This document shows positions 8,042 to 23,669 of a stretch of 64,000 nucleotides of DNA, piece by piece. The DNA is taken from NCBI RefSeq assembly GCF_030389965.1, contig NZ_CP128399.1, positions 1,054,001 to 1,118,000 of the forward strand, written 5' to 3'. Each line of letters starts with the position of its first letter. The first letter of the stretch is position 1. Origin of the DNA: Candidatus Chlorohelix allophototropha (lineage in GTDB: Bacteria; Chloroflexota; Chloroflexia; Chloroheliales; Chloroheliaceae). Both the position numbers and the translations under genes were made by a program. The notes under the pieces are model-generated. The model was given only the letters and a program-made list of their open reading frames with translations. It was not told the origin of the DNA and searched no databases.

Positions 8042-8739
8042 ACGATGAGGTTAATAGCGTTCCTGATATTAGCGGCACCGAGTTAATCCAAGGGATAATG
8101 ACCTATCGCTTACGTTCGGCAACTGAGAATACTTCCAGTGGTAAACACCCTTTATTAATTATGCTTCATGGGCGAGGTGCGAATGAAGGAGATATTTATG
8201 AATTAGTACCCTTTATCCGCCGCAATATTATAATTGCTGCTCCCCGCGCTCCAGAGCTTTTCGACAATAATCCACGTGGTGCATATAGATGGTTCGCTTG
8301 GACTCCTAATCAAGAAATCGGCATTGAGCAATTTGTAAATACAGCCAAAAAGCTTGCTGAACTGGTAACCGAATTAACCTTTAAATATCCAGTAGATAGT
8401 TCAAAAATTTATTTTGGGGGCATGAGCCAGGGCGCTGCTATGGCATGTCTTATGTCATTGCTAAAACCAACTCGGGTAAAAGGAGTTATAGCCCATAGTG
8501 GATTCTTACCGTATCACCCGGAATTAACTAAATTATATAGAAATGCAAAGGGCAAGCCCTATTTCTTTGCACATGGAACCGAAGATAATGTGGTTTCTAT
8601 TGAGCGAAGTCGGCATGTAGCAAATGCTTTTTCAAAAGCAGGGGCACGAATCGTTTATAACGAATACCCGATGGCACATACAACTAGCATTGAAAGTAGA
8701 CATGATTTAGCCGACTGGCTACACAACGAAGTTAAGTAG
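8038..8739 (+). CDS. Phospholipase/carboxylesterase family hydrolase
   Basis: 233 residues, alpha/beta hydrolase of the phospholipase/carboxylesterase family. The oxyanion strand is LLIMLHGRGANEGD, the nucleophile elbow is GGMSQGAAMA (near residue 137), the acid lies in HGTEDNVV and the His in YPMAHTTS, so the Ser-Asp-His triad is complete. Homologues hydrolyse short acyl esters. The gene starts inside the stop codon of the tandem-GNAT gene, suggesting an acetyl transfer and acetyl removal pair acting on one compound, though that is inference. No signal peptide. Confidence 0.88.
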   Translation: MNDEVNSVPDISGTELIQGIMTYRLRSATENTSSGKHPLLIMLHGRGANEGDIYELVPFIRRNIIIAAPRAPELFDNNPRGAYRWFAWTPNQEIGIEQFVNTAKKLAELVTELTFKYPVDSSKIYFGGMSQGAAMACLMSLLKPTRVKGVIAHSGFLPYHPELTKLYRNAKGKPYFFAHGTEDNVVSIERSRHVANAFSKAGARIVYNEYPMAHTTSIESRHDLADWLHNEVK

Positions 8740-8793
8740 TAATTATTTGATGTGGTAACAACATTGTAACACAAGCTTGGGGGTTAAAAGGGT

Positions 8794-9171
8794 ATGGATG
8801 ATTTCGGTGTATTTATGTTGGTAGTGGCTTGGTTAGTAGCCATAATCGGTGGACCTACCATATTAATTTTTAAATTGATCAGACGTGATGAAGACCCTGA
8901 TCGACGTTATCGTATGGTTACCGGGTTTAAGGGTTGGTTTATCGGGTTAGCTGCCGCACTACTATTGTACATGGTTTTGCCAACTGTTTTTGTAAACCAA
9001 AGTGCTGACCCTGATAGCATGGGAGAGATTCAACTCTTTTTCATATTGATACTGCCGCCAATATGTGCTGGAGTTGTCTTCCTTATTTTTGCAATTCTAG
9101 CAGACAGATTTAAAACCCAAGACGAGTTCCCCAAAAGTATAGAAGAGGAAGAGGGCATTTACTACAGATAG
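8794..9171 (+). CDS. Small membrane protein of unknown function
   Basis: 125 residues with three hydrophobic helices (about 4-27, 47-66 and 81-106), a basic loop (LIRRDEDPDRRYR) after the first, and an acidic C-terminal tail (IEEEEG). I do not recognise a family. The ATG at 8794 lies 54 bp after the esterase stop, with a GGGGG tract about 10 nt upstream, so it may be the third gene of that operon. Confidence 0.65.
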   Translation: MDDFGVFMLVVAWLVAIIGGPTILIFKLIRRDEDPDRRYRMVTGFKGWFIGLAAALLLYMVLPTVFVNQSADPDSMGEIQLFFILILPPICAGVVFLIFAILADRFKTQDEFPKSIEEEEGIYYR

Positions 9172-21301: not shown

Positions 21302-22012
21302 ATGGCCAGAGAAACCTTTCAACGCAACCTACGGCAATTACAAGACCAAATTCTTGAATTGGGTAGTATGGTTGAGAAAGCGTTACACCAAGCGATTACC
21401 GCCTTAAAATACGATGATGTTAACCTAGCGGCACAAGTAATCAAAAATGATGTAGCGCTCAATATGTTGCGCTATAAAGTAGAGGAAGATGCGCTAGGTT
21501 TGATCGCCAGTCAGCAACCGGTAGCCCATGACCTGCGCATTATCGCTGCCGCGCTCTTTATTGCCGTAGAATTGGAGCGGATGGGAGATCATGCTAAAGG
21601 AATTGCACGCATTAGCCAGTTAATGAATACCAATGATTTTACTAAAGTCATGGTTACTATCGGCACAATGGCTGAAAAATGCGGTCAAATGTTGCATACC
21701 GCATTAGATTGCTACGTGCAGGAAGACTATAAAACCGCAGCGCAATTGCCTAACCGTGATGATGAGGTAGATGCTCTTTTTGACGAAGTTTTTCGCGAGT
21801 TGATAGCTACAATCAATGCGGACTCCTCCAAAGGTAGTAATGTCACCTATTTGATATGGGCAGCCCACAACCTTGAACGTATCGCGGATCGCACCGTGAA
21901 CATTTGCGAACGGGTTATTTTTACGGCAACCGGCAAATTATTCGAAGAGGAAGTTCACGCTCATGAAGAACTGCCGATACTTGCCAGCGCGTTACTTGAG
22001 TTAGAAAACTAA
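21302..22012 (+). CDS. phoU: Phosphate signalling regulator PhoU
   Basis: 236 residues from the ATG at 21302, which has AAGGAGACGAGG just upstream; a longer reading from 21230 lacks such a site and adds a non-conserved stretch. Two three-helix PhoU repeats are visible, each with the metal-binding pattern: ELERMGDHAKGIAR near residue 80-95 and NLERIADRTVNICERV near residue 190-205. PhoU inhibits the PhoR kinase when phosphate is plentiful. The pst transporter genes it normally accompanies are not in this window. The next gene begins one base after its stop. Confidence 0.95.
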   Translation: MARETFQRNLRQLQDQILELGSMVEKALHQAITALKYDDVNLAAQVIKNDVALNMLRYKVEEDALGLIASQQPVAHDLRIIAAALFIAVELERMGDHAKGIARISQLMNTNDFTKVMVTIGTMAEKCGQMLHTALDCYVQEDYKTAAQLPNRDDEVDALFDEVFRELIATINADSSKGSNVTYLIWAAHNLERIADRTVNICERVIFTATGKLFEEEVHAHEELPILASALLELEN

Positions 22013-22013
22013 A

Positions 22014-22265
22014 ATGGCAGAGCGCAAGTCTTATATTCGTGCCAGTGAGATTGGAACATATGCCTTTTGTCGCAGAGCATGGTGGTTGCAAAGGGTGGCA
22101 GGGCTAGAGGCGCAAGGGGTTCGCGAAAGGCTTGAAGCAGGAATCACGGCTCACAGCATACACGGAAAACAAGTTAAGCGCGTTCGCTCTGCCCGCTTTA
22201 TTGCCTACCTCTGTTTCTTTCTAGCAATCGTCAGCTTAGTATTGGCTGTGTTATTGGTTCATTAA
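22014..22265 (+). CDS. Mini-protein with Cas4-like N-terminal motif and C-terminal membrane helix
   Basis: 83 residues. Residues 7-28 (IRASEIGTYAFCRRAWWL region) strongly resemble the N-terminal Cys/aromatic motif of Cas4-type PD-(D/E)XK proteins, with Cys19. A Gly-x3-His-like segment (AGITAHSIHG, 42-51) follows. The nuclease core (D, ExK and the three C-terminal cysteines) is absent. Instead a single membrane helix (about 62-81) ends the protein. It starts 1 bp after the phoU stop, so it is co-translated with phoU, and it overlaps the end of the convergent membrane-protein gene by 15 bp. I believe similar small proteins occur elsewhere in Chloroflexota. Function unknown. Confidence 0.75.
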   Translation: MAERKSYIRASEIGTYAFCRRAWWLQRVAGLEAQGVRERLEAGITAHSIHGKQVKRVRSARFIAYLCFFLAIVSLVLAVLLVH

Positions 22266-23669
22266 TCGTCTATTTGATTGGTTCAAATTTGCCAAACCAA
22301 GCCCAAATGTAAAAATCGCTAGGGGAATAAGATGGGTTAACAGACGGGTTAGTGTAGAGCTTATATGATAACGTATATCAAGTGGCGTAATCACGTAAAT
22401 AGCAATATAAATCGCTGCCTGTCCCCATAGTACCAGCCAAAGCAATACCAGAGCTAATGATAGCCGATTTCGTGTTGCAAATAACGATGCAAAACCGAGC
22501 AGTAGCATTACTCCTAATCCCACATATCTCACATCCGAGGCAAGCTCACTCCCAATCATTTTTACAATTGTGTCGTAACGTTCTGGCAATTGCTCAAAAA
22601 ACCTATCTGGGTTGAAACCGATCGAGATATCTGTTTCAAATTTATTTAGCTTAGTGTAAAAGTTCCAGCCTAATATTGAAAATAGCAATATACTTGCCAC
22701 TATCATAATACGAACCGATTTCAGCAAGGATAATATTTGCCTGTACCGAATCAGTAATACTATGCCTATCGAAAGTAGTCCTAACAGTGTGAAGGTAATA
22801 CCTTCATTTTTCATAGAACCAGCGAGCGCTAATGCAATCAAAGTTAGGGCTAAATGTGAAGCTTGCTCTGATTCAACCCAACTTGTAAACGCTACCGCAT
22901 AAAAGAGTACCACTACACCCAGCGGAAAATCAGCATAGGCTACGTAATAGCGGTCAAAGTTCATGGTATATACCGGAGGCATCAACAACATTGTCAGCGG
23001 TAAGGCTAAGGCTGCCCAGATTGGCAATTTGTTCCTGAAAAAGCCGTAAAAAAGACCGCAAGCAGCAAGCAAGAATAAATAATTAATTCCAAGAGCAAGT
23101 TGGTCATTAAAACCTATCCCTATAAGGTAGAAAGCATCTACAATTAGCGGGTATGCAACCGGATAATCTTTGTGGGAATAATCAAAAACCAGACTATAAT
23201 CAATACCACCGAAGAAGTAGAAATGTTTTGCTTTCTGAAACCAGATGGCGGTTACATCCCACGCATAGAGGGGTAGAGATAATTGAAGTACCAGTAACGC
23301 ACCTAATGTCCCTACTAAAATTATAGAAATCAACTTGTCCAGCAAGGAAAGATCAAGCCAATAGTGCAGCCACTTTAAAGGTTCGATGGTAATCCTTGGT
23401 AAAGCGGCTTTTCTGGAATTCCATAACAACACTAATCCAGCCAACACCCAGGGCGTATAAAGCCAAAAGCCGTTAAATTTAAGTCCAACCAACGAGTAAA
23501 GTCCCAACTGTAATACCAGCAAGGCAAACCCGGTGAGCAAAGCCGCGCCTGCTTTTGCAAAGTTGGGTAGTTCAACCTGTAATAGACGAAAGCATATTCG
23601 CCCAATAGTATAGCTTGCTACTGTGAATAAACTAAGGAGGGCTACTTGGGTGAAAAAATCAGCCGACAT
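22251..23669 (-). CDS. Multi-spanning membrane protein, GT-C glycosyltransferase-like
   Basis: 472 residues with about eleven hydrophobic helices. A loop after an early helix reads LYAWDVTAIWFQKAKHFYF, with an Asp and aromatic pattern like the first outer loop of GT-C (dolichyl-phosphate-mannose-type) transferases; other loops have FDYSHKDYPVAYP. That supports a lipid-linked sugar transferase, but the call is tentative. The ATG at 23669 lies 3 bp after the stop of the companion gene on the same strand, so they form an operon. The 3' end overlaps the mini-protein gene on the opposite strand. Confidence 0.7.
   Translation of the reverse strand: MSADFFTQVALLSLFTVASYTIGRICFRLLQVELPNFAKAGAALLTGFALLVLQLGLYSLVGLKFNGFWLYTPWVLAGLVLLWNSRKAALPRITIEPLKWLHYWLDLSLLDKLISIILVGTLGALLVLQLSLPLYAWDVTAIWFQKAKHFYFFGGIDYSLVFDYSHKDYPVAYPLIVDAFYLIGIGFNDQLALGINYLFLLAACGLFYGFFRNKLPIWAALALPLTMLLMPPVYTMNFDRYYVAYADFPLGVVVLFYAVAFTSWVESEQASHLALTLIALALAGSMKNEGITFTLLGLLSIGIVLLIRYRQILSLLKSVRIMIVASILLFSILGWNFYTKLNKFETDISIGFNPDRFFEQLPERYDTIVKMIGSELASDVRYVGLGVMLLLGFASLFATRNRLSLALVLLWLVLWGQAAIYIAIYVITPLDIRYHISSTLTRLLTHLIPLAIFTFGLGLANLNQSNRRLMNQ

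Follow-up and report, generated by a model that had tools for sequence, protein, structure and literature searches.

The 83-residue protein encoded beside phoU in Candidatus Chlorohelix allophototropha very probably forms the N-terminal half of a membrane-anchored PD-(D/E)XK nuclease of the Cas4 family that is encoded by two genes and whose active site and Fe-S cluster would form only when its two parts assemble. In Cas4, the PD-(D/E)XK site has an Fe-S cluster next to it, of whose four cysteine ligands the first lies close to the N-terminus and the other three close to the C-terminus. The small protein (hereafter the N-half) carries the first of these regions and then a membrane helix. A second single-pass protein (the C-half) carries what the N-half lacks, namely the GxPD, ExK and QxxxY motifs and the other three cysteines. 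Judged from their sequences, the N-half and the C-half cover complementary parts of one Cas4 family.

The N-half gene lies at positions 22014 to 22265 on the plus strand of the analysed window (64,000 nucleotides of contig NZ_CP128399.1) and opens with an ATG. A single base separates this start codon from the stop codon of phoU (21302 to 22012, plus strand; PF01895, E = 1.5e-42), a 5' neighbour that is not a part of the system, and the 3' end of the N-half gene shares 15 bp with a convergent minus-strand gene (22251 to 23669). This placement, one base after phoU, agrees with the original prediction and is confirmed by the sequence and the Pfam match. The Cas4 N-terminal segment spans about residues 9-51 (22038 to 22166, plus strand). 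It includes the codon of Cys19 (22068 to 22070, plus strand), the predicted first ligand of the Fe-S cluster, and Gly43-x3-His47-x2-His50 (22140 to 22163, plus strand), which corresponds to motif I of Cas4/RecB proteins. A single transmembrane helix follows at about residues 61-81 (22194 to 22256, plus strand) by hydropathy, the basis on which the membrane helices of both halves were predicted; an AF2 model of the N-half alone has a helix at residues 36-82. A hydrophobic helix is predicted after the Cas4 segment in 77/77 N-half homologues, and the terminal membrane helix proposed from the single sequence is thus a family trait.

The similarity of the N-half to Cas4 is weak in any one protein. 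The window sequence matches TIGR00372 over positions 2-49 of 180 (residues 9-57; E = 0.0043), PDDEXK_1 of Pfam at E = 0.0076 and the PADLOC Cas4 model at E = 9e-5. Across the family the signal strengthens: TIGR00372 is matched by 51 of 56 N-half homologues, with a best E-value of 2.9e-5. These profile matches indicate that the Cas4 signal of the N-half family is systematic although the single-protein matches are weak. A profile built from the N-half gave mostly chance matches against PDB sequences, with Cas4 at E = 0.15-0.19. Against the curated TIGR00372 cut-off of 65 bits, the window N-half scores 16.9 bits and the C-half of the same genome, taken alone, 59 bits, while archaeal single-chain forms exceed it with 77-93 bits. 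The Cas4-like N-terminus of the original prediction therefore holds, and its profile similarity is detectable in three separate models; the spelling of the N-terminal motif had to be corrected, as it reads IRASEIGTYAFCRRAWWL. The same prediction had staked its case on the conservation of Cys19 and His47/His50. In alignment A1, which comprises 56 N-half homologues, S11, C19, R21, W23, W24, G43 and H47 do not vary, and H50 hardly does; the prediction withstands this check.

The partner gene was recognised in relatives. In the first three of these, the strand that carries the N-half gene also has a second ORF, whose product starts with a membrane helix and continues as a Cas4 core; this ORF lies directly 3' of the N-half gene or, in locus L003, after one intervening gene. 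The C-half covers positions 53-159 of the 160 in PF01930, which is matched by 57/57 C-half members, and in alignment A2 of the C-half the GxPD motif, the E and K of ExK, the Q and Y of QxxxY and three cysteines are invariant. The window genome, which consists of five contigs (including C1 of 2,961,161 bp and C4 of 241,389 bp), has its own C-half gene on the minus strand of C1 at about 188716-189414 (match to the L003 core at 188710-189225, E = 2.4e-36), preceded by an M48 protease gene. This is about 0.89 Mb from the N-half gene on the same contig, and its motifs read GKPDY, PIEVK and QLAAY. All four putative Fe-S cysteines are accounted for, Cys19 in the N-half and three in the C-half, each invariant in its alignment. 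The catalytic set (motif-I His, GxPD Asp, ExK Glu and Lys, QxxxY) is likewise complete across the two proteins and invariant in A1 and A2. The idea of a split, membrane-tethered nuclease cap, one of the two readings first offered for the mini-protein, is supported to this extent: the core that the mini-protein lacks is encoded by a second gene with a membrane anchor of its own, which as a rule is the neighbouring gene and in this genome lies elsewhere.

Phylogenetic co-occurrence provides further evidence. Of the 158 genomes surveyed in the class, 75 contain an N-half homologue, and the family extends to other Chloroflexota and to archaea of the Thermoplasmata. Within the class survey, 75 genomes have both halves, none has the N-half only, one has the C-half only and 82 have neither; in the lone C-only genome, the contig terminates just where the N-half gene is expected. 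Genus g37 includes four genomes with both halves and seven with neither, and losses of the N-half and C-half are joint. The Fisher p-value of 4e-45 for this co-occurrence is descriptive only, since the genomes are phylogenetically clustered and it overstates the association. The pair also recurs in many families of a 301-genome phylum sample, where several seeming core-only genomes proved on inspection to have a diverged N-half adjoining the core. One genome that is 82% complete (G213, locus L234) has an N-half for which no core was found, through assembly loss or as a true orphan. In the archaeal class of the Thermoplasmata record L004, the N-half profile matches in 104 of 150 sampled genomes.

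Where both genes share a locus they are on the same strand (71/71), typically with stop/start overlaps such as ATGA or TGATG. The halves are unlinked, and both kept, in families f1 (five genomes, including the window genome), f35 (four) and f77 (two) and in the genomes G021, G089 and G243. The halves thus usually form an overlapping operon and have been separated independently several times with both retained. Natural read-through of a stop codon joining the halves was considered and rejected: only 12 of the 71 loci have both genes in the same frame. Because most loci overlap or abut out of frame and the C-half has its own start, two proteins are the rule.

The neighbours of the pair differ by lineage. 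In most Chloroflexia it lies directly 3' of rseP (M50 protease) within a pyrH-frr-uppS-cdsA cluster (for example L080, L082, L087, L122 and L125), and 33 Chloroflexia loci encode, soon after the C-half gene, a small protein rich in cysteine that matches no Pfam family (cluster c9, for example L113:8563-8931). Anaerolineae loci (L193, L195, L197-L199) show an operon of N-half, C-half, NAD kinase (nadK), a small zinc-finger-like membrane protein and recN; the names pyrH, frr, uppS, cdsA and recN were assigned by eye from the sequences. A third arrangement, seen in three lineages (L003, L194, L204), places a YkuD (L,D-transpeptidase) gene between N-half and C-half, with a translin-like gene upstream. 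In f1, the unlinked C-half gene (L145-L149) follows an M48 membrane protease gene, directly in four of the five genomes and one gene further on in the fifth. The phoU gene lies 5' of the N-half in the window only; the other f1 genomes have unrelated genes or a two-component pair there. The phoU linkage for which the original prediction had suggested looking is thus unique to the window within its family, and the adjacency is incidental. A functional link to phoU and the Pho regulon was rejected on these grounds and on the rseP, nadK/recN and translin-like neighbours of other families. A conserved third partner was rejected as well, and because neighbours vary in this way, no shared pathway was assigned. 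A link to a CRISPR locus was also dismissed. The sole Cas1 of the genome is encoded on C4, the 241-kb replicon, where an ordinary soluble Cas4 adjoins it (L153; C4, 53734-55273); the split halves are on C1, and neither has the position beside cas1/cas2 that marks a CRISPR-associated Cas4.

The distribution of charged residues is consistent with a membrane hairpin. In the N-half, lysine plus arginine amounts to 2.79 per 15 residues before the helix and 0.17 after it, a pattern present in 76/77 rows; in the C-half the bias is reversed, with 0.19 before and 2.94 after (77/79 rows). From this bias around both helices, both soluble pieces are predicted to be cytosolic, as a hairpin requires.

To model the two parts as one fold, the L138 pair (8058-8816) was read through its single TAG, with an MSA consisting mostly of unpaired halves. 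The AF2 model reached a pLDDT of 96.3 and a pTM of 0.91, values to be read with the fact that joining the chains forces their proximity; in the MSA, the helix of lone N-half rows was misplaced onto the C-half helix, which affects the membrane part only. In structure comparison the model was matched best by Cas4 proteins, by 7mi4_A at Z = 19.0 (182 residues, rmsd 3.0) over model residues 3-253, which include both halves, and by 8d3l at Z = 18.3; Foldseek agreed (8d3l, E = 9e-7). The window N-half modelled alone had a pTM of 0.49, and its residues 1-30 had a pLDDT of 56-69 versus 93-98 in the L138 pair. By model and structure comparison, the pair taken together is predicted to have the PD-(D/E)XK Cas4 fold. 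The model supports the compatibility of the halves with one Cas4 fold and is not proof of a complex.

Single-chain relatives show the same elements in one polypeptide. Two Chloroflexota proteins (L236, 353 aa; L240, 330 aa) contain the N-half, two membrane helices and the C-half in one ORF, and in the core tree they nest among split rows of family f30. Each of the 21 long archaeal ORFs examined (20 plus L253) encodes one chain that combines the N-half motif with 3-8 predicted transmembrane helices and a Cas4 core, and nine archaeal loci are split as in bacteria. Among 21 ordinary Cas4 proteins of the same phylum taken as a control, 20 had no predicted membrane helix, and 20/21 ordinary Cas4 form a separate, well-supported group in the core tree. 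The tree places L236 and L240 within f30 and does not settle the deep order of the membrane forms, and on that account a single split event was not adopted. One family shows gene splitting and, in one lineage, apparent rejoining. In three single-chain Thermoplasmata Cas4 proteins (L260, L269, L273; 542-559 aa), about eight membrane helices are predicted to separate motif I from the core.

Three other explanations were weighed. The least improbable, though still unlikely, is that the halves do assemble, into a membrane protein whose main role is DNA binding or Fe-S/redox sensing rather than nucleolysis. Some lineages would fit it, as they keep the cysteines and both helices without the GxPD aspartate (L209, L210, L236, L240) or the QxxxY tyrosine (L211, L212, L227, L231). 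Nevertheless, G, P, D, E, K, Q and Y are invariant in the window genome's own core and in all A2 members, and the loss is limited to derived branches. That the mini-protein acts alone as a repurposed metal- or Fe-S-binding membrane module, the other reading first offered, is very improbable: the N-half does stand by itself beside phoU in the window genome, but it has one of the four conserved cysteines, never occurs without a core in the class, and forms one chain with the core elsewhere in the tree of lineages examined. The mini-protein is short and, when taken alone, weakly similar to Cas4 models, as a decaying, functionless Cas4 remnant would be; the fact that 77 homologues, from Chloroflexota and from archaea, conserve its motif and membrane helix, together with its retention through several independent separations from its partner, leaves this explanation next to no credibility.

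Among the degraded lineages, the f30 cores (L209, L210, L236, L240) have ARPTY, GKPTY, ARPAY and GKPTY in place of GxPD and keep the three cysteines; from their sequences, the f30 members without this aspartate are probably non-nucleolytic descendants. L211, L212, L227 and L231 have GRC[DE]H/Q for GxPD and QVGAL for QxxxY with VEQK kept, and are still split with both helices. More degraded cores occur in f23 (L235, L242, L243), with GKPSY, GRPAR and AQPDF and an unrecognisable ExK; the three C-terminal cysteines are kept, and the N-half still adjoins the core in L235 and L243. Because some lineages are without the catalytic Asp or Tyr, nuclease activity is not expected to be universal.

In the preferred explanation, that of a two-gene membrane nuclease, the N-half would provide the motif-I histidine and the first Fe-S cysteine and then cross the membrane from inside to outside. 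The C-half would start with an outside-to-inside helix and contribute the catalytic core and three cysteines. When the two helices pair as a hairpin, the cytosolic parts of both proteins would meet, and the active site and an Fe-S cluster with four cysteine ligands could form across their interface; the hairpin would also hold the nuclease at the cytosolic face of the inner membrane. With the Cas4 elements distributed over two membrane proteins, neither the cluster nor activity is expected unless the two assemble in the membrane. A role in processing incoming or replicating DNA at the membrane may be suggested.

On balance, we favour a broader reading, held with less assurance: membrane-integral Cas4 nucleases would form a class of their own, so far undescribed and widespread, that spans Chloroflexota and Thermoplasmata and has roughly 2, 4 or 8 helices inserted after the first Fe-S cysteine and motif I, ahead of the core. 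The Chloroflexota and some of the archaea would have this protein cut into two single-pass proteins, and completion of the active site and cluster only on their meeting in the membrane would act as a built-in safety or control step. No description of a split, truncated or membrane Cas4 was found in the open-licence literature; as far as found there, the split membrane form is widespread but undescribed. We know of no agreed function for Cas4 outside CRISPR, and a membrane-tied Cas4 whose two proteins are kept despite gene separation points to membrane-located DNA processing. The split also explains why both genes look like orphan or truncated Cas4 in annotation, and it makes a naturally split Fe-S nuclease available in accessible organisms, Chloroflexus and Roseiflexus among them.

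To our knowledge, known Cas4 proteins are soluble single chains. The pair resembles the Cas4 family (TIGR00372/PF01930; 7mi4, 8d3l, 4ic1, 4r5q) in its fold, motif-I His, GxPD, ExK, QxxxY and four cysteines, and differs from it in comprising two polypeptides, in the predicted membrane hairpin between motif I and the core, and in having no link to the CRISPR locus in the window genome. The Fe-S nuclease domains of AdnAB, AddAB and Dna2 have a common fold with it (Z = 8-15 against the read-through model), but are helicase-fused, soluble and unsplit. ACE1 (9iab, 9iac), an Argonaute-associated Cas4 family protein, likewise stands outside CRISPR adaptation (Z about 11); it differs as a single chain associated with Argonaute, and the titles of its structures do not indicate a membrane split. 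A further related system is the monophyletic solo-Cas4 reported outside CRISPR loci in many Chloroflexi (Hudaiberdiev et al. 2017, PMC5704561); the C-half described above may correspond to it. The main text of that study gives four cysteines in all members and mentions no split or membrane form; unlike the solo-Cas4 so described, the C-half alone has three.
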